Of a stretch of DNA of 43,751 bases, positions 2,067-32,933 are shown piece after piece. Origin of the DNA: Oscillospiraceae bacterium (GTDB taxonomy: Bacteria; Bacillota; Clostridia; Oscillospirales; Oscillospiraceae); the NCBI GenBank assembly GCA_017887695.1, contig JAGHHM010000098.1:1-43751 (forward strand), given 5' to 3'. The position numbers and the translations under genes are program-made. Positions within the stretch are counted from its first letter, which is position 1. Every line of letters begins with the position of its first letter. The notes beneath the pieces were generated by a model. The model was not told where the DNA came from. It saw only the letters and a list, made by a program, of their open reading frames with translations, and made no database searches.

Positions 2067-2141
2067 AGCAGAAGAGAGCCGGCACCGTGCAGACAAAACC
2101 TGGCAGGCCGGCTGTGAAAAAACCGGAAAGGAAGGCTGTCT

Positions 2142-2711
2142 ATGGCACAGACGACAAAACGAGCCATTGCCGCCTCGCTGAAAAGAATCCTTGAGCAAAA
2201 GCCCCTCAACAAGATTACGGTTACAGATATTGCAAAGGACTGCAGCATCAGCCGCCACACATTTTATTACCATTTCCGGGATGTGTACGACCTGATGGAG
2301 TGGACCTACCGTACGGAAGGCGAGCGCCTGCTGGAGGGTAAGCGGGACTATGAGAACTGGCAGCAGGGGATGGCGGAAATTTTCCGTTATATCCTGGACA
2401 ACCAGGCTATGGTACGCAACGCTCTTCGTTCCGGCAGCCGGGATTATCTGCTGCCTTATCTGTACCAGAGAACGCATAAGTTGCTTTTTGCGGTTGTGGA
2501 GGAGAAATCTCAGGGAAGAAGCATCTCCAGGGAACACAAGGAATTTATCGCTGACTTTTATAAAAACGCCTTTGCCGGCGTAGTTTTGGACTGGGTGGAA
2601 TCCGGTATGGAGCGGGATCCGGCGGATGTTATCGCTGATCTCGGCACGCTGGTCCGGGGCCAGATGGTAGATGCCATCGATAAGTTCAGCCGGGAAGCGG
2701 TAGAGGTATAA
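2142..2711 (+). CDS. TetR/AcrR family transcriptional regulator
   Basis: N-terminal HTH KITVTDIAKDCSISRHTFYYHFRDVYDLMEW typical of TetR_N. Confidence 0.88.
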   Translation: MAQTTKRAIAASLKRILEQKPLNKITVTDIAKDCSISRHTFYYHFRDVYDLMEWTYRTEGERLLEGKRDYENWQQGMAEIFRYILDNQAMVRNALRSGSRDYLLPYLYQRTHKLLFAVVEEKSQGRSISREHKEFIADFYKNAFAGVVLDWVESGMERDPADVIADLGTLVRGQMVDAIDKFSREAVEV

Positions 2712-2717
2712 TCACAA

Positions 2718-2757
2718 AAAAAGGCCGGACAGGAATCCAATTCCTGTCCGGCCTTTT
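2718..2757 (+). terminator. Rho-independent terminator after the TetR gene
   Basis: aaaaaaaggccggacaggaatccaattcctgtccggccttttg inverted repeat with flanking A/T tracts. Confidence 0.85.
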
Positions 2758-2799
2758 GCGTGATAAGGCAGTAAAGGGAAGGTGCTGCGAAAGGGACGG

Positions 2800-3543
2800 T
2801 TATTTGCGGCAGCATTGCTGGCGGCCGCTGTCACAGGGATTGTCGCAGGGCGGCTTGGGAGGGAAGAACTGATCCACAGGGAAGGAAATATTCTGGAACA
2901 TTTCGCAGGGATCATCGCAGCTGCAGCCGGAGCCGCAGTTGCAGGATTTGTCAGGCAGGCAGTAGTCGTATACCGGCATGAGCAGCTGGCTGTCCCGCTC
3001 CAGGCGGATGATGGAAAACTGACCCAGGGTGACAAAGACCCGGCGGTAGTCATCTCCCGGCGTCAGGTCGCAGCTGAAGCACTGGCACACACAGGTGGGG
3101 ATCTCACACAGGTCACAGTCGCAGCAGCGGCAGTCGCAGCAATCTACCAGCTTGGCGCCCAGGACGATGGGATCCACTGCCTCTACAACGGCAATGGGCA
3201 TATTGCTCTGCTCGATAAGCTGCTGATCCAGGGCGTCCAGCCGCACCCGGGAGGAGAATACCTTGGCGGTGCCTTCGCCGCCGAAGAGGATTACGCGCTT
3301 GTCAAAGACACACAGGCCCTCCACTTCCATGGCTCGGGAGCTGGAGCAAAAGGCGCTGATGGTCACACGGTAGAAGAAACGCATATCCACGGAGTAGCAG
3401 CCCCGGTTAAAGGCTACCGGCTCCACATTGATGTAGGTATACAGCAGCTCGGCCTTGCCGCCCTTGACGGACTGGGCACGGTTGAGGATTTCCTGGCCGG
3501 ACTGGGTGGGATAGAAGCGCAGATCCTCAATACAGTCTTTATC
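2800..3543 (-). pseudogene. 3' fragment (247 codons) of a cysteine-rich clostridial protein gene interrupted by the prophage
   Basis: Frame stays open past the listed GTG start at 3426 up to attL: DKDCIEDLRFYPTQSGQEILNRAQSVKGGKAELLYTYINVEPVAFNRGCYSVDM..., Cys-rich C-terminus; no start codon or RBS at its 5' end; continues from 29989-30090(-). Confidence 0.85.
3542..3543. other. attL crossover (left prophage boundary, proposed core TC/GA)
   Basis: Minus strand CCA TGT TGT|GAT AAA GAC TGT; codon-register alignment with attR (GAC GCG TGC AGA|GAA TAG) rebuilds one ORF. Confidence 0.75.
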
Positions 3544-3577
3544 ACAACATGGAGCGATTTAGAAGAAATGGCAAAAA

Positions 3578-3604
3578 GGCCGGAGGGGAACCCCTCCGGC
3601 CTTT
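3578..3604 (+). terminator. Rho-independent terminator at the left prophage end
   Basis: aaaaaGGCCGGAGGGGAACCCCTCCGGCCttt perfect inverted repeat; nearly identical to the one at 4564. Confidence 0.8.
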
Positions 3605-3742
3605 GCTATTTGGGTTACCAGTAAGGTTTTATTACGGCAGTTCAGCGTTGTCTGTTTCACAGCAATTTTCTGCAGATTCTGTCCATGATCACATGTATAC
3701 TATTGTTGCAACACAGAAATTATGAAATTTTATGGCGAAATA

Positions 3743-3771
3743 TTGAATTATGCAGAAAGGCGTGGTACAAT
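3743..3771 (+). promoter_or_regulatory. Sigma-A-like promoter of the cargo operon
   Basis: TTGAAT-N17-TACAAT with TG 2 nt upstream of the -10. Confidence 0.65.
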
Positions 3772-3854
3772 TGCAACGTAAAGTTACACCAGCAAATGAG
3801 CCAAGCAATTTGCGGTCTGCAGCACGGGAAAGAGATTATGAGGAGATGTTTTGC

Positions 3855-3986
3855 ATGACTTCTGGAAGCAAGAATAATGTTTTTGTGGTCGGTGCCCCGA
3901 AAAACCCGCAAAAGCCCCTTCCTACTGTCAGTAAAGGTCAGGTGGCAAAAGCCCTTGCGTCTGCTGAAAGGTATAAGAAGAAATGA
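3855..3986 (+). CDS. 43-aa basic hypothetical protein, first gene of cargo operon
   Basis: MTSGSKNNVFVVGAPKNPQKPLPTVSKGQVAKALASAERYKKK; AGGAG at 3841-3845; the longer 3750 start lies inside the promoter; stop overlaps downstream ATG (ATGA). Confidence 0.65.
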   Translation: MTSGSKNNVFVVGAPKNPQKPLPTVSKGQVAKALASAERYKKK

Positions 3987-4549
3987 TTGAAAATGCCCAT
4001 TTTGACATATGGAGCAAAGATATATACGGGTTGGCTTTGGGATTCAAAGTCAACCCTTCTTCTTGCGGGAACCCGGAGCACTTCGAGAATTATATCCGCT
4101 GGTCTGCCATTGATGACAACAACGCCGGGGTATCCACCACCCATGCCTTTATTGATGATGAAAATCATGCCCTCATGGGGTTTGTGAGCCTGAAGGCATC
4201 CTCGCTGCTGAGCAGAGAGGGGAGCATGACCATGGGAGAGCCGGCCCTGGAGATCTCCAACCTGGCAGTCAGTAAGGACTATGAAAGAAGAAGAGTCGGA
4301 ACAGAGCTGATCCTCCATGTCATTGCCGAGGTGCTGAAGGCCAATCGGGGCTTTGCCGGGATCAAGTATATCGTTTTGGCGGCAGATCCTAAAGCCGTTG
4401 GGTTTTATGAGAAAATGGAATTCTATAAGCTGAGGGAATATTTTGAAATTCCTCGGCAGATGGATAATGCCGATTGTGTTCCCATGTTCATGAAGATTCA
4501 GCACAATCAGGACGAAGCCCGCTATGTGGATGTTTCGGATGACGAATAA
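3983..4549 (+). CDS. GNAT family N-acetyltransferase
   Basis: LEISNLAVSKDYERRRVGTELILHVIAEVLK...YIVLAADPKAVGFYEKMEFYKL typical GNAT acetyl-CoA and C-terminal motifs. Confidence 0.85.
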   Translation: MIENAHFDIWSKDIYGLALGFKVNPSSCGNPEHFENYIRWSAIDDNNAGVSTTHAFIDDENHALMGFVSLKASSLLSREGSMTMGEPALEISNLAVSKDYERRRVGTELILHVIAEVLKANRGFAGIKYIVLAADPKAVGFYEKMEFYKLREYFEIPRQMDNADCVPMFMKIQHNQDEARYVDVSDDE

Positions 4550-4563
4550 CTGGATAGATAAAA

Positions 4564-4590
4564 GGCCGGAGGGGAGCCCCTCCGGCCTTC
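4564..4590. terminator. Bidirectional terminator between the GNAT gene and the endolysin gene
   Basis: aaaaGGCCGGAGGGGAGCCCCTCCGGCCttctt. Confidence 0.8.
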
Positions 4591-4598
4591 TTCTATCC

Positions 4599-5270
4599 TT
4601 AACCGAACACTCCGGCCCGGTCGCAGATAACCAGGATCCGCAGCATGTCCCGGCTGAGATCCAGATCCGCCGGTCGGCCCTGGTCGTCCACCTTGCCGCT
4701 GTTTCCGGTGAGGTAGCCCAGGGCCACCAGCTTGTCCACGGTGGCCTGCGCCCAGCTGGGGCATCCGGCCACGGTGTCGTACCGATCCACCATCTCCTCT
4801 GTCACCTCCTCCATAAGATCCTTGGCCCGGACGGCGCCCACGATGACACTCCAGGCACGGCTCCGGCGCTGGACCTGTCCGCCGTCGGCGTCGCTGCCGG
4901 AGCCGGTATTGCCCTCGATGGCCACCACGCCGCTGCCCGTCACGCTCTCCACGATGCCGCAGTGATCCGTGGCGGCGCCGCCGGGGAAGTCGTAGATCAC
5001 CACGTCTCCGGGGCGGTAATCCTCCGTCACCCACTGGCCGCTCATCTGAGCAGCCCGCATGAGAGCCCCGCAGGAGGCGGTGCGTTGGGGCAGTGCCACG
5101 CCCAGCTGGGCAAAAACCCATTGGACGAACACCATGCACCAGGGATAGCTGCCACCACTGACCTCCCGGCCGTAATACCAGGTGTTATAGCGCACATTGT
5201 TGCTATTGGGCGGACTTTCGCTGATGCCCACCTGGGTAGCGGCCAGGAGGGCCACGTCCCGGCCGGTCAT
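4599..5270 (-). CDS. Phage endolysin, CHAP-type with C-terminal wall-binding-like region
   Basis: YPWCMVFVQWVFAQLGV, RPGDVVIYDFPGGAATDHCGIVESV, EGNTG. Confidence 0.85.
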   Translation of the reverse strand: MTGRDVALLAATQVGISESPPNSNNVRYNTWYYGREVSGGSYPWCMVFVQWVFAQLGVALPQRTASCGALMRAAQMSGQWVTEDYRPGDVVIYDFPGGAATDHCGIVESVTGSGVVAIEGNTGSGSDADGGQVQRRSRAWSVIVGAVRAKDLMEEVTEEMVDRYDTVAGCPSWAQATVDKLVALGYLTGNSGKVDDQGRPADLDLSRDMLRILVICDRAGVFG

Positions 5271-5596
5271 GACTGATCCCTCCTGGATTTGATGACGCCC
5301 AGCTGCTCGATCAGCTCCCGCAATTTATCGAAGCCAAACATAGCCGCATAGGCTACGATCAAGCCCAGCACCACCGCCGCGGCCACCATGTACCACACCA
5401 CCGGGATCCCCCGGACCTGACAGATGGCGAAGAATGCCAGCAGGGTGATGGTCTCGGCCACAATGAACGCCAGCAGGTTGGTGGGGATCAGGTCCCAGGT
5501 GATCTTCTTCAGCACCTCCACGATGATGTTGACCAGCACGGTGGCCACCGCCACCACGATCAGCAAAGTACTGATATATGCCTCAAGATTCTGCAT
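5267..5596 (-). CDS. Putative holin / small phage membrane protein
   Basis: Three hydrophobic segments; directly upstream of and overlapping endolysin. Confidence 0.65.
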   Translation of the reverse strand: MQNLEAYISTLLIVVAVATVLVNIIVEVLKKITWDLIPTNLLAFIVAETITLLAFFAICQVRGIPVVWYMVAAAVVLGLIVAYAAMFGFDKLRELIEQLGVIKSRRDQS

Positions 5597-11920: not shown

Positions 11921-13999
11921 TCACCTCGCTCCTGCCGCCAGCTTCCGCTCCAGGGCGTTGGCGATGGCCAGGCCAATGGCGTCCAGGTCGCTCTCGCCGC
12001 GGACGCTCCACTGGCCGGTTACGGTCACGGAGATGGGGCCGGAGGCCCGGCCGCTGTCCATCTCCCGGGCCTGCCGGGCGGTGAGCACCCGCTCCCCCTG
12101 GTGGAGAATGGCGGCGTAGTTGTCGTAGGGCACCCGGCTCAGGCCGTAGGCGTTGGAGCTTATTCCGTAAGGAGACTGGCCGTGCATGGCCCCCTGCCAT
12201 TGCGCAGGCATCCCGCTCAGGAGCTGTTCTCTGTTGCTGGAGCTGGCGGCATAGCCCTTGGTGAACTCTAGGTTTTTTTCGTAGTTGCTACGCCAAGATT
12301 CGAGGGCGGCCGTGTTGTCCCGAATAGCCGAAATCTGATCTATCTCCACATTGTTAAGGGACAGGTACTGCTCGCTGGATTGGTAAGCGGCTGTTGCTAA
12401 CGCCTCCGCCTGCTCTTTCAGCGCTTCCATTTTCATGCCGGCCTCTTGATTGCCCTGCTCATAGGCTGCGCTGTTTAGTACAAAAGCCTCTCGCATCTCG
12501 TCCAGCTTTAGTTTGTCTTCATTGGAAAACATGGTTGCCTCTTGGCCCAGCAAAACGGCGGAGAGAGCTTCCCGGGTGTACCGCTCAGACAAATTTTCAA
12601 GGTATGCTTTGTTCTCGCCGGCAATACGATTGATCTCGCCAACCGCATCTCCCAGGATTCCGCCATAGGCGTCTTGCTGTGCCTGTATCCCAGAGATCCG
12701 CGTACTGTTGTATCCTGTTCCGCCCATAGCTTCCAGGTTTGCCATGGTGTCCTGAAGATTATTTACCATGGCGTCATAGGTTCCGGCCAGCTTCTCGCTC
12801 AGACCGCCAAATTCCTGATCAATATAGTCCAGGATAGCTTGAGCGGCTTCTGCGCCGCCGATCTGGCCTTTGGTGACCATTGCGGAAATCTGGCTCTTGT
12901 CCACCCCCAGGGACTGCCCCAGGGCGGCGTAGGCATCCACGCCCCGCACGGAAAAGTAGTCGAGATACTCATTGGTAGCCTTTCCGAGGGTTCTCATCCG
13001 GCTGAGGCCGGAAATAAACATCTGTATATCGGAGGTGTTCAAATTCAACCCTGCAGAAGCGTCGGACAAAGTCCCGAGAATACCGAATACAGATTCTGGA
13101 TCGTAGCTGTTTAGCAAAAGCTTGGAGTATCCCGTGATTTCGTCATAGGAGTAGTTGGTTTTTGTAGCCATACTTTGGACTCTGGCCAGATAAGCGGCAG
13201 CAGCCTCGTCACTGCCGAAGCGCTGAGCAAAAGCCATTTGAGTTTGCTCCCGGCTTCCCGCAATTGCCGAGCCAGAAGACAGCATATCCGCTGTCCCTTG
13301 GGCGACAGCCTCGTAAAGCCCACCATAGTAATCTTTAAAGGCCGCGTCCTTGCTCTCAAAGTTCTGGGCCGCGCCGCCCAGCATCCCCACAGCGCCGCCC
13401 AGGGCGGCGCCTACGGCGGTACCGATGCCTGGGCCTCCCAGCATAGTACCGATGGCGGCGCCGCTGCCGGCGCCGCTGAGGGCACCGGAGAAAAGGTTCC
13501 CCCCCGCGCTGCCCAGGGCGCTCCCCGCCAGGGCGTTGGCCCACTGGCTGGCGGTCTGGCCCAGCATCTGCCAGGCACCCGCCTGGCCCAGCTGGGCCAT
13601 GATGCCGGGGCCCGCCCGGTTCTGGGATCGGCTGGCCACGCCGCTCATATTCTCAAATTCCCGGGTAGTGGCCCGCACCTGGCGCTCCACCAGGTTGTAC
13701 TCCTGCCGCAGGCTCCGGAGGTTGGACTCCGCCTGCTCCCAGTTGGCCTTTGCCGCAGCCCGCTGGGCCTCGTCCACGCTGTCCCCCAGCTCCTGATAGG
13801 CCTTTTTGGCCGCCTTGACCTCCTCGGTGGCAGCAGACAGCCGGGTTTTTGTCCCGGCCTGGATGTCGTTGAGCTTCTTGAGCTCCTGTTCCAGCTTGGT
13901 CACGTCGCCCCGAAAGGCCGTCATGGAGTTTTTCATGCCGATGACCGCCTGGCTCAGGTTGTCCTTGACGCTCATGGCCACGCTGGCATCAATAGCCAT
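11921..13999 (-). CDS. Phage tail tape measure protein
   Basis: 692 aa; coiled-coil N-terminus, Gly/Ala-rich hydrophobic block, position between chaperone and LysM protein. Confidence 0.85.
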
Positions 14000-15087: not shown

Positions 15088-16188
15088 TTACAGGTTGGAG
15101 AACTGGACCTTGAAGTCCTCCTGGGCGTCCACCAGGCGGCCGCCGCAGCGGATAAACACCCAGCTGCCGGTCTGGTACTCCAGGATCTCCTGCCGGGTCA
15201 TGGTTGAGGTGTCCACCCCCTGGCTCTTGATCCAGCTCAGCTGTGCCTCGTAGTCCACCTCGGCAAAGCTCTCGTTGGGGTTAAGGACGCCCACGTCCTC
15301 CAGGAAACGGAGATACCCCAGGATGGCGGCCACCAGGATCTGCTTGTTGTCGTAGGTGTTGGAAAATTTGCCGACATACTCGTTCTCGATAGTGGTCCGG
15401 AGGTAGTAGGTGATGAGGTCCATGCCCTCCACGATCTTGATCTTCCGCCAGTCGTCCTTGCCGGTGGCGGGGATGGTCTGCAGGGAGTTGACGCCCCGGG
15501 CGATCTTGGCCTGTACGCCGTCGTGGATCAGGATCAGTTTGCCGGCGTCCACCGCCGCGTCCGCCTCCGCCGTTGTCCGGGCGGTGACTGCCGTCAGCTC
15601 CGGCAGAGGGGCGTAGGTAGAGGACATGGCCATGGGGATGCCAGCGAGGATCCCTGCGATCCGGGCGCAGTAACTGGCAGCCGTGACGGCGTCCTTGCCC
15701 ATCATCATGCCGCTCTCGTCCAGCTCGATGACGCCCATGTCGTCGGCGCCGGCGGTCTTGTAGGGGCGCACCAGCTTGGGGGTGCGGTACAGGGCACGCT
15801 GGGCCTTGGTCCACTCCAGGAGCTTGGCGCTCTCGTCGTCCGTCAGGTCCAGGGGGCCGGCAAGATAGTCCACGCTGTATCGCTCAATGAGCTTGAGCCC
15901 CGCCTCCAGGGCGGAGGTATTCTCAGTCCCGGGGGCGATCACCACCAGGATCACCAGGGAGGGAGCGCCCCGGTCGCTGCCTTCAAATGCGGTGAGGATA
16001 TGCTTCTTGTTGGCCTCCCCCAGATCCGCGGGGATCAGGGTCTCGTCATTGAGGAGGTGGACGCCCTGGCTGTTGGCGTCACGCACGAAGATGGCCACAT
16101 AGCCCCGCTTGCTGCGGTTGTTCACCGCCTGGGCTGCCTTGGCAAAGGCGATCCTCAGCTTGGGCAGGCCAATGCTGGGAAGTGCCAT
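15088..16188 (-). CDS. Phage tail sheath protein (XkdK-like)
   Basis: LPKLRIAFAKAAQAVNNRSKRGYVAIFVRD...; contractile sheath family. Confidence 0.9.
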   Translation of the reverse strand: MALPSIGLPKLRIAFAKAAQAVNNRSKRGYVAIFVRDANSQGVHLLNDETLIPADLGEANKKHILTAFEGSDRGAPSLVILVVIAPGTENTSALEAGLKLIERYSVDYLAGPLDLTDDESAKLLEWTKAQRALYRTPKLVRPYKTAGADDMGVIELDESGMMMGKDAVTAASYCARIAGILAGIPMAMSSTYAPLPELTAVTARTTAEADAAVDAGKLILIHDGVQAKIARGVNSLQTIPATGKDDWRKIKIVEGMDLITYYLRTTIENEYVGKFSNTYDNKQILVAAILGYLRFLEDVGVLNPNESFAEVDYEAQLSWIKSQGVDTSTMTRQEILEYQTGSWVFIRCGGRLVDAQEDFKVQFSNL

Positions 16189-18312: not shown

Positions 18313-19539
18313 TCAGGCCCCGGGGGTGGTGGCCACCACGAAGCCCTTGTCCACCACCAGGTTGCCGCCTACCATGGCGTCGCCCAGGATGGTGAACATG
18401 CGCTCCACGGCCTTCACGCTCTCATCCACCCGGATGGAGTAATCACCAAAGAGGCCCAGCTCGTAGTTCATGGGATCGCCGTAGACCATGGTCTGCACCT
18501 CGGTGCCGGCGCCATCCAGGGCGGTGAGGAAGGAGTTGATGGCGTAGGGGATCATGGTGCCGCCGTCCACGATCACGCCGCGGTTGGGGTTGTTGCCCTC
18601 GGGGCGGATCTCAAAGACCCGCTTCTTGTCCTGGGTGCCCCGGATCTTGCCCAGGGCCAGAAGATCCTTCTTGTTGAGGTAGAGCCGGGCGTTGGCGCCG
18701 ATGGTCTCGTCGCCGCCGTAGCCGAAGAACAGCTCGGTCAGCAGGCTCTCGGTTACGCCGCCGGTGATCTCCAGCTTCTTGAAGATCTCCGCACCCGCCA
18801 CGTTCTTGGCGTTGAGGATACCGAACATATCGGGGCTGGCCTGGCCGTCACCCTTGACGATCAGCTCGCTGAGCTTGCGCCGGATGGCCCGCATGGCCAT
18901 GGAGCGGATCTTCTCGTAGTAGCTCGCAGGGCTCAGGCGGGAGATGTTGCGGTCCACATAGCTGGTCACGTTCAGCTCATAGGGGCTGATCTTGGCCACG
19001 CCGAAGGTGGGATCAGTGGACACCGTCCGGGCGGTGCCGGCGTTGGTGGTCACCTTGCCGCCCTTGGCGTCCAGCTCGGTGATGACGTAGGGCTCCAGGA
19101 AGCTGCCCATTCCGGTAAGATCCTGGACATAGACCTCATCCACGATGGAGCTCACCACGTTGCCCAGGGGGTCGCGGATCAGGCTGCCGGCGCCGGTGGG
19201 CTCCACGATGGTGCCGGTGGCCAGGGTCACCTGCTTGCTGGCCTGGTACAGGTCACGGATGGTCTCCCGGGCGGTGAACTTGATCTCGCCGCCCTTCTGC
19301 AGGATGTCCGCCCGCTCCAGGGCCTTGTCCCGCTCCTCATGCCGGTCGGGGGCCTTTTCCATAAACTTGCGGTCCTGCTCCTGGATCAGATCCTGAAGGT
19401 CCTTGATCTCGCCGTTCATGTTGGAGACCTTCTCCATTTCGCTGCGGTACTCCGCCTGCTTGCCCTCCTTCAGGAAGGCCTCCGCCTTCTCCAGAACGGC
19501 GGTACGCTGCTGCTGCAGGTCAATCAGTTTCCGTCTCAT
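18313..19539 (-). CDS. HK97-type major capsid protein
   Basis: N-terminal coiled coil then GTGIVEPTGAGSLIRDPLGNVVSSIVDEVYVQDLTGMGS..., IVKGDGQASPDMFGILNA; ATG at 19539 with AAGGAGG. Confidence 0.92.
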   Translation of the reverse strand: MRRKLIDLQQQRTAVLEKAEAFLKEGKQAEYRSEMEKVSNMNGEIKDLQDLIQEQDRKFMEKAPDRHEERDKALERADILQKGGEIKFTARETIRDLYQASKQVTLATGTIVEPTGAGSLIRDPLGNVVSSIVDEVYVQDLTGMGSFLEPYVITELDAKGGKVTTNAGTARTVSTDPTFGVAKISPYELNVTSYVDRNISRLSPASYYEKIRSMAMRAIRRKLSELIVKGDGQASPDMFGILNAKNVAGAEIFKKLEITGGVTESLLTELFFGYGGDETIGANARLYLNKKDLLALGKIRGTQDKKRVFEIRPEGNNPNRGVIVDGGTMIPYAINSFLTALDGAGTEVQTMVYGDPMNYELGLFGDYSIRVDESVKAVERMFTILGDAMVGGNLVVDKGFVVATTPGA

Positions 19540-19556
19540 GCTGCTTGTCCTCCTTG

Positions 19557-20264
19557 TCAAACAAATCTGGTTTTCTCCAGTTCCAGCAGGGCCTCGTCCT
19601 GCCAGGCCTGGCTATCTGCTCCGGGGCCTTTCCCCGGCTGGGGATCTTCTGCGGGCCCCTCCGGTCCGCCGTAGCGCTTGGCTTTGATTACGCCCGCCTC
19701 CGGCTGAGTGGGCACGGCCACCAGGGACACCTCGTATGCCTCCGCCGCCCCGTCCAGCAGGAACACGCAGCGGGCGCCGTCGTACTCCCGGCCGGGGATG
19801 TGCTCGCACCACTCCCGGCGCTGGTCCTTGCCGCAGATGGAGCAGATCACCCGCTCCACCGCCACGCCCACACTGCACTCCCGGAGGATCCCGGTCTCAA
19901 TGGCGGCGATGGTGTCCTCAGTCTTGTCCATCCTGGGCATATAGCAGCTGAGGACCAGCTGGCGGCCGCCGCCCGGCTTGTCCTCCACGGCAGCGGCATA
20001 TACCCGGGCGGTCTGGACAGTGGCGCTCCAGCGGTGGTCCATCAGCACCGGCCGGCCGGGGAACAGCTCCGCGAAGCCCTGGAGGGCCTCCTCGGTGAAG
20101 CGCTCATCGTCCCGGTCCACCTGGTCGTTGCAGGCCGCCAGCCGGAAGGTGAATACCTCTTCGGCCTTCAGATCCCGCAGGGCCTGCTGGTTGATCAGCC
20201 GCAGGGCCTCCTCGCTCAGCTCCGCCGCCTTTTCCACCAGGGCGGCTTTGAAAAGTTCAGCCAC
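19557..20264 (-). CDS. Prohead protease-like protein
   Basis: VDRDDERFTEEALQGFAELFPGRPVLMDHRW...; position before capsid; GTG start near 20264 with AGGAG. Confidence 0.8.
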   Translation of the reverse strand: MAELFKAALVEKAAELSEEALRLINQQALRDLKAEEVFTFRLAACNDQVDRDDERFTEEALQGFAELFPGRPVLMDHRWSATVQTARVYAAAVEDKPGGGRQLVLSCYMPRMDKTEDTIAAIETGILRECSVGVAVERVICSICGKDQRREWCEHIPGREYDGARCVFLLDGAAEAYEVSLVAVPTQPEAGVIKAKRYGGPEGPAEDPQPGKGPGADSQAWQDEALLELEKTRFV

Positions 20265-20294
20265 TTTCTCACTCCTTTCTCGTTTCGCAGGCAT

Positions 20295-20345
20295 AAAAAA
20301 ACGCCAGAACCGGAGAAGAAGATCATCCTTCTCACGGCTCTGGCG
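20295..20345 (-). terminator. Intrinsic terminator/attenuator inside the structural operon
   Basis: Minus strand CGCCAGAGCCGTGAGAAGGATGATCTTCTTCTCCGGTTCTGGCGTTTTTTT. Confidence 0.8.
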
Positions 20346-20397
20346 CTGGGCTTTCTCAGCCTCTGGCTCTGGCACTTACCTGTATGTTCTTTTTCCA

Positions 20398-21087
20398 TCA
20401 CTCTACAATTGGCCTGCTGGCGGCCCGGATCCGGCTCAGCTCCGCCCAGTCCGCCAGGGGGACAAAGTTGAGACTGGCCCGCCGGTGCTCGCCGCCGGGC
20501 ACGTCCGGCATGTCCTCCAGGGCCAGGATGTCGTTGACGGAGAACACGCCTTCGTCAATCATCGTCTGATACCAGCCGGACCGGGCGCCGGTGTCGCCCC
20601 GGAGCTCGGCCATGAGGTTGATCCGCAGCTCCAGGCCCCGGTCTACCTGGCTTTTGGCCAGCAGCTTCCAGGTCTGCTCCTCCTCGTACTGGTTCACAAT
20701 GGGGTGGAGGGTGCCCACCACATACTCGATGGCGTTCTGCTCATTGGAGCCGTAGGCCTGCTTGCCCTCCTGAAGCTTGTAGAGAGGGACGCCTGACATG
20801 GCCACCTCTGCCCCGCCGCTGCCCTCAATGATCATGCCGTAGGTGGCGCCGTCCGGGGCCTCGCCTTTGAAGTACTGCTCATAGAAGGTCCCTCCGCAGG
20901 CGGAGCACCGGCATTCCACCGCCGGCACCTTCCGCCGCTTACCGCTGAGGACGGCCTCGGGGGAGGTGTCCTCCTCCCAGACTTTCCGGTACACGATCCC
21001 GGCGGTGTCCAGCTCTCCCAGGTTCATCGCCCATGGAAGCAGGCCCTCCGGGGCCTTGCGGCTCACCAGATCTTTGTAGTCCTTCAT
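20398..21087 (-). pseudogene. Chimeric ORF: PcfJ-like N-terminus fused in frame to phage portal C-terminus
   Basis: First ~85 aa (VECRCSACGGTFYEQYFKG zinc-ribbon, following a PcfK-like gene); last ~145 aa portal-like (GVPLYKLQEGKQAYGSNEQNAIEYVVGTLHPIVNQYEEE...RGDTGARSGWYQTMIDEGVFSVNDILALEDMPDVPGG). Confidence 0.78.
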
Positions 21088-21099
21088 CCTGCCGTCCCC

Positions 21100-21450
21100 C
21101 TAAAAGAAGTCAGTCAGATCAATGAATTTGCTGCTTCTCCTGTCCTCCTGACTGGCCGTCGGATCAACGTCCCGCTCCGGCAGGCCGTAAAACTCCCGGA
21201 TGATCTTCTCCGCCCGGATCGGTGTCACACAGGCGAAATTTCCCACCTTGTGCTGGTCTGCCCACGCCTTGATCTTCTTCTCGCAGTGCTCCAGGCTCAT
21301 TTCCGGTACTTCCAGATCACGCAGAACGATCTCCGCCATGTGGGGCTCCTGCCGCAGCATATCCTTCAGCTGTTCGCCCACCATCCATACAGCGTTTTCC
21401 TCTTTAGGCTGCTGTGCGGTGATAGCCTCTATCGCGGCACTCAGGATCAT
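21100..21450 (-). CDS. PcfK-like protein
   Basis: MILSAAIEAITAQQPKEENAVWMVGEQLKDMLR...MSLEHCEKKIKAWADQHKVGNFACVTPIRAEKIIREFYGL. Confidence 0.75.
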   Translation of the reverse strand: MILSAAIEAITAQQPKEENAVWMVGEQLKDMLRQEPHMAEIVLRDLEVPEMSLEHCEKKIKAWADQHKVGNFACVTPIRAEKIIREFYGLPERDVDPTASQEDRRSSKFIDLTDFF

Positions 21451-21695
21451 TGAGAATCCCCCCCTTCCGCCGGCTCCGCCTCCCGGCCCAGCCACTGCTC
21501 CAGGCACTGGGCGCACTGGTCGTTGTCAATTCCCTCCAGGCGTTCCAAGGAGACAAAGCACTCCGGTCGCTCCTGGCAATACTGGGGGCCCTCCAGCTCC
21601 TCGATCTGCATGATGAACCGGGCCAGGGCCTTGTCATCCATGGCCCGGATCTCATCGCCCCGGGTCATGGGCTTGTGTTCCATCTTGATAGCCAT
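21447..21695 (-). CDS. Phage hypothetical protein
   Basis: 82 aa in tightly packed early operon; overlaps neighbours by a few nt. Confidence 0.55.
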   Translation of the reverse strand: MAIKMEHKPMTRGDEIRAMDDKALARFIMQIEELEGPQYCQERPECFVSLERLEGIDNDQCAQCLEQWLGREAEPAEGGDSQ

Positions 21696-21849
21696 TATTT
21701 TTCTCCTTTTCCGCAGCTGCCAACAGGTCCTCCAGGGCCCAGGCCACCGTCAGGTGGTCCACCTTCAGCTGCATATCATTCGCCATGGTGCTTAGGGATC
21801 TGTGCCGCCGGATCTCTGCCTTGATGATCTGCACGGCAGTCTCATCCAT
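21652..21849 (-). CDS. Phage hypothetical protein
   Basis: Start MDETAVQIIKAEIRRHRSLSTM at 21849, overlapping the DnaB-like stop. Confidence 0.5.
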   Translation of the reverse strand: MDETAVQIIKAEIRRHRSLSTMANDMQLKVDHLTVAWALEDLLAAAEKEKNNGYQDGTQAHDPGR

Positions 21850-23224
21850 GGGCTGCCACCTCCTGGTCAAAGGGACTGGGCTCATAGGAGCGCACTGGCC
21901 GGAAGAGATTTTGCTGGGGATCTGGCTCCTTCTTGGGAACAGTGGACATCGGCTGGGATACGGACTTGGAAAAGCGCTGCTTGTCCCCTTCGAAGTTCAG
22001 CAGAAGCCCCAGCCCGGCCTCGCCGTCTTTGTTCTTGGCCAGATCCAGAACCCGCCGGCTGTAGGCGAAGTCCTGGTACTCCTTGTAGAGCAGCAGCACC
22101 ACATCGGCGTCCTGCTCGATCTGTCCGGACTGGCGGAGGCTGGAGAGGGTAGGGGGTGGTGTGGAGCCGTCCTTCTTTTTGTCGGGGCGGCTGAGCTGGG
22201 AGAGGGCCACCACGGTTTTCTTGGTGGTGCGGCCCAACTGCTGCAGGTCGTTGGAAACCTGGGAGACCTTTTCAACGTCGCTCATGTACCGCCCGGCCCG
22301 GACGACGGGGATCTTCTGCAGGTAGTCAATCATGATAACGTCGTAGTGGTGGGCCATGGCATAGGAGCCGATGGAGCCTACCGTCATGCCGCTGGCCTCG
22401 ATAAGATCCATCACCGGTGCGGTAAGGTGCTGCCGGAGATCTCTGATCCGGCCATAGTCCTCCTGCTGGAGGGCGTTGCCCAGGATCCGCTTGAAGCTGG
22501 TGTGGGTCTGACAGGCCACGGTCCGGTCATAGAGCTTGTCCGCGTCGGTCTCGTAGCTGAAGAACCCCACCCGCTTGCCATTCTTGGCCAGGTGGAAGGC
22601 CACCTGCAGGGCAAAGGCGGTCTTGCCGGCGGAGGGGTATCCGCCGATGACCACCATGTCCCCGGGGCCGGCGTGGAGCTGCTGGTCCAGATCCGGGAAA
22701 CCCAGCTTCAGGAAGTCGGGAGGCTTGCCGCCGTCCCGGCGCTTGAAGAAGGCCCGGAAAGCCTCCTGGAGGGTCACCCGCCGGATGCCGGACCGCTCGC
22801 AGAAGAGGAGGTTTGCCTGGTCGATGGCGGCCCGGCAGGCGTCCTCGTCCTCGGCCGTGGCCAGTTGCTCTCCTATCTGACGCAGACGATGGAGCCGGGA
22901 TGTTTTTTTCAGGGCCTCGGCGTAGGCGTCGGCATTGGCAGAGGTGGGAGTCACCTCGATGTACCGGGCCATAAGGTCGCGGTATTTGCCGCCCAGGGCC
23001 TCACTGACGGTGATGGCGTCCACCGGCTGTCCCTGGCCATAGAGCTGGGCCATGCAGCGGAAAATGGTCCGCTGCTCCGGCAGCTGGAAGTCATCCTCCG
23101 CCACTGCCATGAGCATGGGGCCCACGGCGGCCTCGTCGATGAGCATGGATCCCAGGACGCCTACGGCAGCGGTCATGAGGCTCTCGCTGAGGAGATGCCC
23201 CTGCTTGTCCTTGTCGTTCATCAC
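21842..23224 (-). CDS. DnaB-like replicative helicase
   Basis: VIGGYPSAGKTAFALQVAFHLAKNGKRVGFFSYE Walker A; VIMIDYLQKI Walker B; DnaB N-domain. Confidence 0.93.
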   Translation of the reverse strand: MMNDKDKQGHLLSESLMTAAVGVLGSMLIDEAAVGPMLMAVAEDDFQLPEQRTIFRCMAQLYGQGQPVDAITVSEALGGKYRDLMARYIEVTPTSANADAYAEALKKTSRLHRLRQIGEQLATAEDEDACRAAIDQANLLFCERSGIRRVTLQEAFRAFFKRRDGGKPPDFLKLGFPDLDQQLHAGPGDMVVIGGYPSAGKTAFALQVAFHLAKNGKRVGFFSYETDADKLYDRTVACQTHTSFKRILGNALQQEDYGRIRDLRQHLTAPVMDLIEASGMTVGSIGSYAMAHHYDVIMIDYLQKIPVVRAGRYMSDVEKVSQVSNDLQQLGRTTKKTVVALSQLSRPDKKKDGSTPPPTLSSLRQSGQIEQDADVVLLLYKEYQDFAYSRRVLDLAKNKDGEAGLGLLLNFEGDKQRFSKSVSQPMSTVPKKEPDPQQNLFRPVRSYEPSPFDQEVAAHG

Positions 23225-26926: not shown

Positions 26927-26977
26927 GATGGCAGCCTCCTTTGTTGAGATATACCATCATCGCAAATTGTGACCCAA

Positions 26978-27025
26978 GTTGCACGAAGCTGTGCAACAAA
27001 AATAAAAAGTGTCCGATTTGGACAC
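26978..27025. promoter_or_regulatory. Two inverted repeats upstream of the DUF4041 gene
   Basis: GTTGCAC-GAAGCT-GTGCAAC (26978-26997) and GTGTCCGATTTGGACAC (27009-27025). Confidence 0.6.
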
Positions 27026-27040
27026 AGAGGGAGAGAGAAA

Positions 27041-28351
27041 ATGGAAGCTTATATAGTCCTGACGATTGTATTTTTGATTCTTTGGCTATACGAGCGCAGT
27101 AAGTCGAAAAAGGCAAAGCAAACGATTTCAGAAGCAAATAGTTATGCTGAAGAAAAAAAGGCAGAGGGAGACAAATTATACGAGGATAAGCACCGGGAGG
27201 CCCTAGATTATTATTGGAAGAAAACCCAAAGCGCCGATGAAAGAGTAAAAAAGGCTGAGCAGGAAATTGAGAAACTAGGTAATGAAAAAGCCAAATTGGA
27301 AGAGGAGCTTGATATTCTCAGTAAGGATGTAATCTGTGCTGCGGTTTCTGTTGATGCCTATGAGGGATTAAAGTCCGATGAGATAAAGAACCAGTTGGCC
27401 ATCCTAAAAACCCGCCAGGAGGAGCTGATTCGATCTGGCAACGCTCTAGTGGTTTCCGGAAACGATGGGCCTCGGCGTGTTGTAGATAGTCAAAAAAAGC
27501 AGATCCTTCGTTGCTTTAACTCGGAATGTGGGACGATCATTGGTGGGGTAACTGCCAATAATGTGGATACAGCCAGATCAAAACTCCAAAAGACCTATGA
27601 AGCGTTGAATAAGATGTTTGCAGTTGATGGAGTGCAGCTGTCTGAAGAAGTTTTTTCTTTAAAACTTGAAGAATTGAGCATGGTATATGCCTATATGCTA
27701 AAGGTTGAGGAAGAAAAGGAGACCAAGAAGGCGATTCGAGAGCAGATGGTCGAGGAAGAAAAAGTCAGAAGGGAGATTGAAAAAGAAAAGCAGAAAATTG
27801 AGAAGGAAGAAGCTCAGTTTTCTAATGAAGTTAAAAAGCTCATGGGGTATATGCAGAAGGCTAAAGATGATATAGAGAAGCAGCTTTATGTTGATAAGAT
27901 TAAGGAACTAGAAGCAAAGCTGCAGGATCTTGCAAAGGATAAGGAAAATGTTCTCCAAAGAGAACAGAACACCCGTGCCGGCTTTGTGTATATCATTTCC
28001 AACATAGGTTCCTTTGGGGAACAAGTATTTAAAATCGGCATGACCCGCCGGTTGGATCCTATGGATCGTATTAGTGAGCTGAGCAGTGCCTCGGTTCCGT
28101 TTCCTTTTGATGTCCATGCGCTGATTTTCTCTGACGATGCACCTGCCCTGGAAACTGTTCTCCACCATCATTTCCAAAGCCAGCAGGTTAATAAGGTAAA
28201 CGCACGAAAAGAATTTTTCCGCGTTGACCTTGATAGCATCAAAAAGGTTGTTCTGGAAAACCATAATGCTACGGTTCAATTTGTGGAAATCCCAGAAGCT
28301 ACGGAATATAGAGAGACTTTGCGCATCGAGAAGGAAGCGCAAGTAGGTTAA
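27041..28351 (+). CDS. Membrane-anchored DUF4041 / T5orf172 (GIY-YIG-like) protein
   Basis: N-terminal TM; coiled coil; DUF4041-like core (LRCFNSECGTIIGGV...); C-terminal GFVYIISNIGSFGEQVFKIGMTRRLDPMDRISELSSASVPFPFDVHALIFSDDAPALETVLHHHF. Confidence 0.85.
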   Translation: MEAYIVLTIVFLILWLYERSKSKKAKQTISEANSYAEEKKAEGDKLYEDKHREALDYYWKKTQSADERVKKAEQEIEKLGNEKAKLEEELDILSKDVICAAVSVDAYEGLKSDEIKNQLAILKTRQEELIRSGNALVVSGNDGPRRVVDSQKKQILRCFNSECGTIIGGVTANNVDTARSKLQKTYEALNKMFAVDGVQLSEEVFSLKLEELSMVYAYMLKVEEEKETKKAIREQMVEEEKVRREIEKEKQKIEKEEAQFSNEVKKLMGYMQKAKDDIEKQLYVDKIKELEAKLQDLAKDKENVLQREQNTRAGFVYIISNIGSFGEQVFKIGMTRRLDPMDRISELSSASVPFPFDVHALIFSDDAPALETVLHHHFQSQQVNKVNARKEFFRVDLDSIKKVVLENHNATVQFVEIPEATEYRETLRIEKEAQVG

Positions 28352-28426
28352 CTATTGGTGATACATAGAGGGGGCCGCTCCGCCGGAATGGCGGGGCGGC
28401 TCCGATTAAAGAAAGGAGGCCCTCCC

Positions 28427-29968
28427 ATGACCCGTGAGCTGCTGGAGCAGATGCGCTCCGAGGGCCGGCTGGTGCCGGCGTCCATGTACCTGAGAAAATC
28501 CCGGGCGGAGGAGCACATGGGCCTGGAGGAGACCCTCTCCCGCCACCGCTCCACCCTGACGGCCTTCGCGGAGAAGTACGGCTTCCTGATCCGGGAGGAA
28601 GATGTCTACGAGGAAGTGGTCTCCGGCGAGAGCCTGTTCGCCCGGCCTCAGATGCTCCGGCTCCTGGAGGCGGTGTCCCAGGGGCGGTATGCCGCCGTCC
28701 TCTGTATGGACATGCAGCGTCTGGGCCGCGGCGGCATGTATGACCAGGGCATCATCCTGGACACCTTCAAGGGTTCGGAGACCCTGATCGTCACCCCGGA
28801 GCGGACCTATGACCTGACCCAGGACATAGACGAGGAGGCAGCGGAGATGCAGACCTTCCTCAGCCGCAGCGAGTACCGGCTCATCACAAAGCGTCTGCGC
28901 CGGGGAGTGCTCCACTCGGTGGAGCAGGGGGCCTACATGGCAAATCCGCCTTTTGGGTACCGCAAGACGGAGATCAATAAACTGCCCACCCTGGAGATCG
29001 TGCCGGAGGAGGCGGAGATCGTGCGGACCATTTTCCGGATGTACGCCGCCGGGAACGGCTGCACCCGGATCGAGCAGACAGTCAACGCCATGGGAGCCCA
29101 TGGCCGCCGGGGGAGCCGCTTCAACCGGAACACCATCCGCCAGATATTGGATAACCCGGTCTATGTTGGCAAGATCCGGTGGAACCGGACCAACACGGTT
29201 AAGACTGGGGTAGGGGAGCAGCGCCGGCGGGTGGTGGTGTATAACACCGCTGACCGGTGGACGATCCTTGACGGAAAGCATCCGGCCATCATTGACCAGG
29301 ATCTGTGGGATGAGGTGCAGGCACTGCGAAAGAGCCGCTATTTCTACATCGATAATAAGCATGTGGCCAGCCCGTTGGCAGGGCTTGTCCGCTGTACTAA
29401 GTGCGGCCGTGGCTGCAATATGCAGGGGAAGAACAAAGGGGTGGCGTACCTCCTGTGCCCCACACCAGGCTGTACAGCAGGGGCAAAGTTTGAGTTGGTG
29501 GAGCAGGCGGTGCTGCTGCAGCTGCAGGAGATTGCCCGGGGACTGGAAATCAGCCTCAGCCGGCAGGCGCCGCCGGACACGGCAGCCTTGGAGAAGGAGC
29601 TGGCCCAGACCCGGGAGCAGCTGGGGCGGCTGTCCGGCCGTCGGGACCGGCTGTATACCTTTCTGGAGGATGGCACCTACACCCGGGAGATCTTTGCCCA
29701 GCGGATGGCGGTGCTCTCTGAAGATGAGGAGCGGCTCCGGGGACGTATCGAGGAACTGGAGGGAAAGATCCGCGCGGAGCTTGGCAGGGATAAGCGCAAG
29801 CAGCTGGCACGGCTGAAGGAAGTCCTGGCCAACTACCAGGAGGCGAGCCTTGCAGGCAAAAAGGATCTTCTGCAGTCCATCGTGGCGGTGATCTACTACA
29901 CCAAAAAGAAAAAGACGAAACCTGGTGATTTCTCCATCCAGGTCGTCCTGCGTGAAGATCTGGAGTAA
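28427..29968 (+). CDS. Large serine recombinase (phage integrase)
   Basis: YLRKSRAEE...MDMQRLGRGGM resolvase domain; recombinase domain; zinc ribbon CTKCGRGCNMQGKNKGVAYLLCPTPGC; C-terminal coiled coil; AAAGGAGG RBS. Confidence 0.95.
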   Translation: MTRELLEQMRSEGRLVPASMYLRKSRAEEHMGLEETLSRHRSTLTAFAEKYGFLIREEDVYEEVVSGESLFARPQMLRLLEAVSQGRYAAVLCMDMQRLGRGGMYDQGIILDTFKGSETLIVTPERTYDLTQDIDEEAAEMQTFLSRSEYRLITKRLRRGVLHSVEQGAYMANPPFGYRKTEINKLPTLEIVPEEAEIVRTIFRMYAAGNGCTRIEQTVNAMGAHGRRGSRFNRNTIRQILDNPVYVGKIRWNRTNTVKTGVGEQRRRVVVYNTADRWTILDGKHPAIIDQDLWDEVQALRKSRYFYIDNKHVASPLAGLVRCTKCGRGCNMQGKNKGVAYLLCPTPGCTAGAKFELVEQAVLLQLQEIARGLEISLSRQAPPDTAALEKELAQTREQLGRLSGRRDRLYTFLEDGTYTREIFAQRMAVLSEDEERLRGRIEELEGKIRAELGRDKRKQLARLKEVLANYQEASLAGKKDLLQSIVAVIYYTKKKKTKPGDFSIQVVLREDLE

Positions 29969-29988: not shown

Positions 29989-30090
29989 CTATTCTCTGCA
30001 CGCGTCATAGATCTTTTTGGTATGGATACAAACGGCCTCACAGGTATCCTTGGAGCCGGATACGGGGCCGGGTACAATGCGATCAGGCAT
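29989..30090 (-). pseudogene. 5' fragment of the interrupted cysteine-rich gene (33 codons then phage-derived stop)
   Basis: TAGGAGG RBS; MPDRIVPGPVSGSKDTCEAVCIHTKKIYDACRE*; continues in frame at 3543(-). Confidence 0.82.
29993..29994. other. attR crossover (right prophage boundary, proposed core TC/GA)
   Basis: Minus strand GAC GCG TGC AGA|GAA TAG. Confidence 0.75.
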
Positions 30091-30239
30091 AATGGACCTC
30101 CTACTAAGTAAAACTATGGAAGGCGTCTGCCTTCATTTCCAGTGTATGCGCTCCAGAGCGGTTGGTGAAAATTCGGACTATACAAATTTGTCCCGGGCGG
30201 GTATAATGAAAGCGGAAAGAGTAAGAGCGGAGGTGGGTC

Positions 30240-30806
30240 ATGACCGAATTCGGCTTTATCAGCGACAAGCTGGAGATCAAATTTTTGATCCTGTATATCG
30301 CCGCCAGGATTATTGAACCGGTGCCCTTTGAGGTACTGCAGGATCTGAGCATGTGCGACGGCGGTGTGGATTATTTTGACTTTTCCGAGTGCCTGGCGGA
30401 TCTGGTCCGTACCGGCCACCTCAGCCGCAGCGAGGACGGACTCTACGCCATTACGGAAAAGGGGCGGCTTAACGGGGCCATCTGTGAATCCAGCCTGCCC
30501 TATTCCGTGCGGATGCAGGTGGATCAGAACCTGGTAAGTCACAATGAGCGCCTCAAGCGCCGGGCTTTGGTGCAGGCTCAGGTCCAGGAGCGGCCGGAGG
30601 GAGGCTACACAGTGACGCTTGCTCTCAGCGATGAGCTGGATAATCTCATGAAGCTGGAGCTTTTGGTCACCCGGGAGGATATGGCTCAGACGATTCAGAA
30701 GAATTTTAAGGCAGATGCGGAGAGTATCTACTCCCGGATTTTGGCGGTGCTGTTCAACCCTGAGGAGGGGCGGGACACCAGGCCGTCAGACGCTCCACCT
30801 GTGTAA
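30240..30806 (+). CDS. DUF4364 family protein
   Basis: FGFISDKLEIKFLILYIAARIIEPVPFEVLQDLSMCDGGVDYFDFSECLADLVRTGHL. Confidence 0.85.
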   Translation: MTEFGFISDKLEIKFLILYIAARIIEPVPFEVLQDLSMCDGGVDYFDFSECLADLVRTGHLSRSEDGLYAITEKGRLNGAICESSLPYSVRMQVDQNLVSHNERLKRRALVQAQVQERPEGGYTVTLALSDELDNLMKLELLVTREDMAQTIQKNFKADAESIYSRILAVLFNPEEGRDTRPSDAPPV

Positions 30807-30850
30807 TAAGGGTAAAATTTTTACAAAATATCATATGACGGAGATCTTGT

Positions 30851-30891
30851 CCCCGTCCCATCCAGTAAGATGGGACGGGGCTTTTTTGCTT
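30851..30891 (+). terminator. Rho-independent terminator
   Basis: CCCCGTCCCATC-cagtaa-GATGGGACGGGGcttttttg. Confidence 0.88.
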
Positions 30892-30897
30892 CTGTGG

Positions 30898-30926
30898 GCA
30901 TATCCGGGGACGAGCTCTCATACAGT
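30898..30926 (+). promoter_or_regulatory. Sigma-E-like promoter of spoIIIA operon
   Basis: -35-like GCATATCC and -10 CATACAGT just upstream of spoIIIAA. Confidence 0.6.
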
Positions 30927-30950
30927 GGGAACAAGAACGGACAGGGAGGA

Positions 30951-31859
30951 ATGGCGATGACAGAGGACCGCTATAAGGAGGCCTGCGCCCTGCTGCCGGA
31001 GGCATTGCGGAAGGTAGCGCTGGGGGTGGATCCACCTCGGCAGGCCAGGACGGAGGAATTGCGGCTGCGGGTGGGGAGGCCCCTGGCGCTGACGCTGCCG
31101 GAGGGAGAAGTATCTCTGCCGGGACCGGCGGTGGACAGCAGCGATCTTACCCAAGTGCTGGACAAGGCCACCGCCTTTTCCCGCTATGCCGCCGGGGAGA
31201 CCATCAGCCAAGGGTTTGTGACAGCGGAGGGTGGCTTCCGGATTGGCCTGTGCGGAACAGCCATTCCCGAGGGTGGAGAGAACCGGGGACTGCGGGATAT
31301 TACTTCGGCGGCGATCCGGATCCCTCATGCTTGCCCCGGGGTGGCGGAGCCTTTGCTGCCGGAGCTCCTGGAGCGGGGCAGGGTGCGCAGCACCCTGATC
31401 CTTTCCCCACCGGGGGGCGGCAAGACCACACTGCTGCGGGACCTGGTGCGGCTTCTGAGCCAGGGCGGCGCTTTGGCGGGGCCTATGCGGGTGGCGCTGG
31501 TGGACGAGCGGGGGGAGCTGGCGGCGGTGTGCCGGGGTAAGCCGCAGCTGAATGTGGGGCCCTCCACAGATATCCTGGACGGCTGCCCCAAGGCGGCGGC
31601 GGTACCCATGCTGCTGCGGGCCATGAATCCCCAAGTCATTGCCCTGGATGAGATTGCCCTGCCGGCGGATGTGGGGGCGGTGCTGTCGGCGGCAGGGTGC
31701 GGGGCGGCAATCCTGGCCACTGCCCACGGCGCTTCGGTAGCGGAGCTGCGCCGTCGAACGGTGCTGCGGGAGCTTCTGGAGAGCGGGGTATTTCGTCGGG
31801 CGGTGGTCATTGAGGGCCGGGGCGCGGAGCGCTGCTGCCGGGTGGAGGAGCTGCTGTGA
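30951..31859 (+). CDS. spoIIIAA: Stage III sporulation protein AA (ATPase)
   Basis: LILSPPGGGKTTLLRDLVRLLS; VALVDERGELAAV; operon order. Confidence 0.95.
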   Translation: MAMTEDRYKEACALLPEALRKVALGVDPPRQARTEELRLRVGRPLALTLPEGEVSLPGPAVDSSDLTQVLDKATAFSRYAAGETISQGFVTAEGGFRIGLCGTAIPEGGENRGLRDITSAAIRIPHACPGVAEPLLPELLERGRVRSTLILSPPGGGKTTLLRDLVRLLSQGGALAGPMRVALVDERGELAAVCRGKPQLNVGPSTDILDGCPKAAAVPMLLRAMNPQVIALDEIALPADVGAVLSAAGCGAAILATAHGASVAELRRRTVLRELLESGVFRRAVVIEGRGAERCCRVEELL

Positions 31860-32347
31860 GATGGCTGGGGGCCCTGCTGATGCTGGCCGGGGCCGGCGGC
31901 GGTTATCTGCTGGCCCGGCGGGAAAGTTTGCTGCCGGAACGTCTGGCCCGGGCGCTGCTGGTGGATCTGGGGGTATTGGCAGACGGAGTATGCTGTCTGC
32001 GCCGCCCTCTGCCGGACATTTTGGGAAAGGACCTGGCGGAGGGCCTGGGGGCAGTATGGTTGTGGAGGCCTCTGCTGGAGATGCTGAAGGGAGAGACGGG
32101 GCAGTCCCTGCCCGCCTGCTGGGCGGAGGTTACAGGGCAGCTGCCGGCTCCTATGGATGGGATGCTGGCCTCCCTGGGCCCTTTGCTGCCGGCAGGAGGC
32201 GAGGCCCTGCGCAGGGCCATTGAGGAAACGAGAGAGGAGCTTACCGGATTTTTGCGGGAGGAACGTTCCCGGCAGGCCGTGGAGGCCAGGCTGACTGCGG
32301 CAGTGTGTTTGTCGGGAGCATGCCTTCTGATCCTGGTATTGATGTGA
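31856..32347 (+). CDS. spoIIIAB: Stage III sporulation protein AB
   Basis: Operon order; membrane termini. Confidence 0.9.
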   Translation: MRWLGALLMLAGAGGGYLLARRESLLPERLARALLVDLGVLADGVCCLRRPLPDILGKDLAEGLGAVWLWRPLLEMLKGETGQSLPACWAEVTGQLPAPMDGMLASLGPLLPAGGEALRRAIEETREELTGFLREERSRQAVEARLTAAVCLSGACLLILVLM

Positions 32348-32349
32348 CA

Positions 32350-32544
32350 ATGGATGTTGATCTGATTTTTAAAATAGCGGCCATCGGTATTGTGGTGGCG
32401 GTGCTCAACCAACTGCTGGTGCGCTCCGGCAGGGAGGAGCAGGCCATGATGACCACGCTGGCGGGGCTGGTGGTGGTGATGATGATGCTGGTGCAGGAGA
32501 TCAGCGACCTCTTCCAGCTCATCAAGGCCCTGTTTGGGTTTTAG
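32350..32544 (+). CDS. spoIIIAC: Stage III sporulation protein AC
   Basis: MDVDLIFKIAAIGIVVAVLNQLLVRSGREEQAMMTTLAGLVVVMMM. Confidence 0.95.
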   Translation: MDVDLIFKIAAIGIVVAVLNQLLVRSGREEQAMMTTLAGLVVVMMMLVQEISDLFQLIKALFGF

Positions 32545-32546
32545 CC

Positions 32547-32933
32547 ATGGAGCTGCTGCGGCTGATGGGGCTGTGTGCCCTGTGCCTCCTGCCGGTAATG
32601 GTTCTGCGGGGCAAGAATCCGGAGCAGGCTTTGCTGCTGGTGCTGGCCATTGCGGCAGTAGTGCTGGGACGGGTGCTGGCGTTGGCGGCCCCTCTGCTGG
32701 AGCGGCTGGACGCCCTGTTCCAGCAGGCAGGGGTAGAGAGCGGCCATGTGGCGATCCTGCTGCGAACAGTGGCAGCGGCCCTGGTAACCCGGCTATGCGG
32801 CGATCTGTGCCGGGACGGAGGCTCCCAGACCCTGGGAACGGTAGTGGAGCTGGCGGGGGCGGCAGCGGCTTTGCTGATCGCTCTGCCGTTGCTGGAGGCA
32901 GTGGCACAGCTGCTGCTGGGATACTTTACATAG
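32547..32933 (+). CDS. spoIIIAD: Stage III sporulation protein AD
   Basis: Operon order; hydrophobic SpoIIIAD-like. Confidence 0.92.
   Translation: MELLRLMGLCALCLLPVMVLRGKNPEQALLLVLAIAAVVLGRVLALAAPLLERLDALFQQAGVESGHVAILLRTVAAALVTRLCGDLCRDGGSQTLGTVVELAGAAAALLIALPLLEAVAQLLLGYFT

Follow-up and report, generated by a model that had tools for sequence, protein, structure and literature searches.

The window, the whole 43,751-nucleotide stretch of DNA analysed here, carries a contractile-tailed prophage that was very probably made defective by one internal deletion joining pcfJ to the portal gene in frame. The join lies within a 229-aa open reading frame, which the earlier note had read as an in-frame chimera of a PcfJ-like N-terminus and a portal C-terminus. 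Here, we confirm this reading: the homology of the frame is split, with a sharp boundary at codon 99. The prophage and its main features are:

3544 to 29997: the prophage; in the congener L077, where the site is empty, the counterparts of 3543 and 29998 are neighbours, 3 bases apart
20398 to 21087, minus strand: chimeric ORF of 229 aa, PcfJ-like N-terminus and portal C-terminus (ORF list, Pfam, homologue alignments)
20794 to 21087, minus strand: PcfJ-like N-terminal 98 residues (alignment and matches to relatives, L032 at E 2.4e-21; PF14284 in the full-length L054 and L073 proteins)
20791 to 20793, minus strand: deletion junction, codon 99 GGC (Gly99), where the PcfJ and portal alignments meet
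20398 to 20793, minus strand: C-terminal 131 residues of an HK97-type portal plus stop (about residues 298-428 of relatives)
21100 to 21516, minus strand: partner gene preceding the PcfJ-like part; phrog_36399, with 21450 as the likely ATG start (PHROGs; ORF as listed)
19557 to 20375, minus strand: head maturation protease-like gene, full length against relatives
18313 to 19560, minus strand: major capsid protein, PF05065 (Pfam, relatives)
15088 to 16188, minus strand: contractile tail sheath, phrog_1480 (PHROGs)
11921 to 13999, minus strand: tail tape measure protein of 692 aa, with matches in L054 and L012 over almost its entire length
21842 to 23224, minus strand: DnaB-like replicative helicase (Pfam, PHROGs)
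28355 to 29968, plus strand: large serine integrase

The portal half (residues 99-229) represents the C-terminal third of a portal and is 85% identical to its nearest relative. The sole Pfam match in the ORF is the end of Phage_portal (PF04860, E=7e-16), in which residues 99-192 align to positions 232-321 of the 321-position profile, so that the full portal fold is not present; the PHROGs match is phrog_12 (E=4e-22). The retained portion, 131 aa rather than the approximately 145 aa first proposed, corresponds to the final third of the 8cez portal in the PDB (residues 309-413), and the structural comparisons confirm the portal half. Among phages, viral contigs and species genomes, homologue matches nearly all start at residue 99. 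When the genomes of the family were included as well, no homologue spanned the whole protein; a single family of full-length homologues, which would have spoken against a chimera, is thus absent from the collections searched.

Residues 1-98 behave as the beginning of a longer protein. Within 400 genomes of the family, matches occur in 11 others and fall on the first approximately 100 residues of ORFs that are mostly long; the best is in L032 (E 2.4e-21). They match only the start of PcfJ-domain proteins of 550-610 aa. Those relatives that are readable throughout measure 549-598 aa, and the alignment starts at residue 1. The same query found no match in viral contigs and phages, and its relatives come only from whole genomes of the family. 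In the full-length proteins of L054 (590 aa) and L073 (607 aa), PF14284 occupies residues 415-557 (E=9e-37) and 419-559 (E=1.5e-20), respectively; the L054 position lies past the join, and the domain is missing from the hybrid. Relatives have two Cys pairs, of which the PcfJ-like half retains the first (CRCSACG) alone. Identity to the closest PcfJ reaches only about 50%, and none of the relatives compared is close over both halves. The upstream gene had been called PcfK-like. This conserved gene has no Pfam match and belongs to phrog_36399, though its place as partner stands: found in 22 loci, it sits immediately before a PcfJ-like gene in every one.

Where exactly do the two homologies meet? 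Alignment to the PcfJ proteins of L032 and L073 extends as far as 20791, and alignment to the portals of five relatives begins at 20793, leaving an overlap of one codon, GGC, or at most about 3 nt. This places the junction at 20791-20793, slightly outside the range of 20800-20850 suggested before. The two join regions of L054 share an exact match of at most 7 nt, a length not above that in shuffled sequence. Scanning viral contigs with a degenerate pattern that spans the join gave no second copy, and no second genome with a PcfJ-portal fusion was found among phages, viral contigs, species genomes and the genomes of the family.

The size of the missing segment can be estimated from relatives. 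In L054 (CALWYA010000001.1), the order is partner gene, PcfJ, TerS, TerL, portal, protease, capsid, neck, sheath, tube, chaperone, tape measure and tail genes, and the window is colinear with it on both sides of the gap. About 8.2 kb of L054 separates position 1844 or so, matching the last of the PcfJ part, from 10001, the first kept portal residue, and the window has nothing in its place, which supports the proposal that a deletion ran from within pcfJ into portal; measured against L073, the segment is about 8.6 kb. Both sizes are inferred from relatives rather than read from an undeleted form of this same phage, and a search of viral contigs for an intact sister by DnaB, integrase and partner gene returned partial relatives only. 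Among the other loci with this portal C-terminus, the portal N-terminus lies directly upstream of it in 56 of 56 with enough upstream DNA, and TerL is present in 44 of 45. TerS, TerL and the portal N-terminus, all present in relatives, were not found in the window, in agreement with the earlier note.

In the remainder of the source genome (93% complete), no PcfJ domain PF14284, no PF03354 terminase, no second PF04860 portal and no portal N-terminus were found. Its other TerL, on contig C108, is of the Terminase_6N family and has no similarity to the TerL of the relatives, and it was rejected as the missing piece. This gene (G000:C108:18270-19775; L108, L109) belongs to a second, unrelated prophage, whose protease-like gene is 43% identical to that of the window.

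The bacterial attachment site that the prophage occupies lies upstream of the spoIIIA operon. Window positions 702-3543 correspond to 1-2822 of L077 and positions 29998-32672 to 2826-5500. Since the host flanks adjoin in L077, they form one locus with a 26.5-kb prophage. An uncharacterised host gene between lacto-N-biose phosphorylase and the spoIIIA operon contains the integration site in its 3' part (window 2782-3624 and 29998). At least two prophages use this site in the host gene, and a further insertion in the same gene is present in L080. Next to the integrase lies a 460-aa gene of phrog_1847 (26969-28351).

What is left of the prophage looks undecayed. Matches to relatives cover almost the whole of the capsid, protease, sheath, tube and tape measure genes, and the tail, lysis, replication and integrase genes look intact. 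None of 48 conserved positions is altered in the portal remnant and none of 71 in the major capsid protein, and the dN/dS of the remnant is similar to that between intact relatives. As the remaining genes are undecayed and look full length, the deletion is probably recent.

We propose that the phage, with relatives in Oscillospiraceae, integrated into a gut bacterium via its serine integrase, and that one deletion of about 8.2-8.6 kb then removed the 3' approximately 80% of pcfJ, the genes at the early/late boundary, TerS, TerL and the 5' approximately 70% of portal. The ends would have been joined by illegitimate recombination at a homology of at most about 3 nt, the frame being kept by chance. 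The hybrid would be translated from the pcfJ start, with a zinc ribbon short of one Cys pair, and, without about 297 portal residues, would be unable to act as a portal; from what portals are known to do, a fragment of this kind is not expected to form a packaging channel. With neither terminase nor portal, DNA packaging would be lost and the prophage defective. We infer a single, recent event, a hybrid without function and the loss of packaging; more than one deletion step is possible.

Could the join instead be an assembly artefact, pcfJ having been wrongly linked to portal while the prophage is in fact whole in the cell, or at least in some of the population? The source is a fragmented draft genome of 201 contigs, and undecayed remaining genes would also fit an assembly that skipped the segment. 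However, there is no shared repeat at the join, the 7-nt match being no longer than expected from shuffling, the missing parts lie on no other contig of the assembly, and the reading frame is kept. We therefore consider a misassembly at the join unlikely. A contig composed of two loci is ruled out by the contiguous host flanks in L077.

A sister prophage bears on whether the chimera could be a gene under selection. In G010, a different species of the genus, the same site carries a prophage that is 92% identical to the window in the replication region and 93% in the integrase. There, the 82-aa ORF that precedes the partner gene in the window is followed by an ORF starting MAEVSNPNTTPVIREIPLE, which runs in frame into the tape measure protein from residue 239. 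The first 20 residues of this fusion weakly match the start of ParB-like genes, which sit after DnaB in L083-L085. The fusion locus (L079:308-1964, G010:C18, with L078) thus holds a probable parB start joined to the tape measure gene. No capsid, sheath or tube homologues were found in the G010 prophage; its deletion took the tape-measure N-terminus besides the sheath, tube and head gene homologues. Judged from sequence, this is a second, different, larger and independent early-late deletion.

One might argue that selection maintains the chimera as a functional gene, for instance in a satellite or a tail-only (tailocin-like) particle with no further need of packaging. Its open frame, the intact appearance of the tail, lysis, replication and integrase genes, and the loss of packaging and head genes in the sister by a different deletion, also with an in-frame fusion, would fit this idea. 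Yet no second genome with the fusion was found, the capsid and protease genes are kept, unlike in tailocins, the sister also lost its sheath and tube homologues and the tape-measure N-terminus, and an in-frame join has a one-in-three chance. We consider a functional chimera very unlikely. A broader proposal starts from the two sister prophages, which at one attachment site each have an early gene start fused in frame to a late gene: packaging loss by such early-to-late fusion would be recurrent in the lineage and selected, with the early operon keeping the downstream late genes translated in elements that serve the host or depend on a helper. This, too, is very improbable. Two in-frame joins have a one-in-nine chance, and selection therefore need not be assumed.

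In summary, the preferred reading remains that of a prophage disabled by a single deletion from pcfJ into portal. Loss of this sort is an ordinary way for a prophage to die, and the prophage in the window looks like a clean first step of decay, with one deletion, exact ends and undecayed neighbours. Set beside its sister, which occupies the same site and was deleted independently, it offers a small natural comparison of which functions go first. Profile searches will label the hybrid 'portal protein', and a non-packaging prophage may be called intact.

Defective prophages with internal deletions are known, and the window probably holds a further case: among genes essential for the lytic cycle, loss of at least one of which marks a prophage as defective, it lacks TerS, TerL and the portal N-terminus. 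Grounded prophages have been described as highly prone to deletions, which are said to be frequent (PMC6379469), and portal and terminase are among the genes preferentially lost in incomplete prophages (PMC7744054). The prophage in the window shares with such defective (cryptic, 'grounded') prophages this reported bias, terminase and portal being lost and integrase and tail kept, but differs in that its deletion ends inside two genes, leaving one open hybrid frame and undecayed remaining genes. We found no paper on a PcfJ-portal fusion in the literature searched. R-type tailocins such as Marinomonas MEDPRO2 (PMC10870725) likewise combine a contractile tail, baseplate and lysis genes with the absence of a packaging system. 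An R-type tailocin is, however, a tail cluster without capsid and replication genes, as in MEDPRO2, whereas the window has both (PF05065, DnaB) and an integrase. The closest likeness in gene order is to the L054-type contractile prophages of Oscillospiraceae, which share the succession of phrog_36399 partner, PcfJ, (segment), portal, protease, capsid, sheath, tube and tape measure; unlike the window, L054 keeps its 590-aa PcfJ, TerS, TerL and a full portal.
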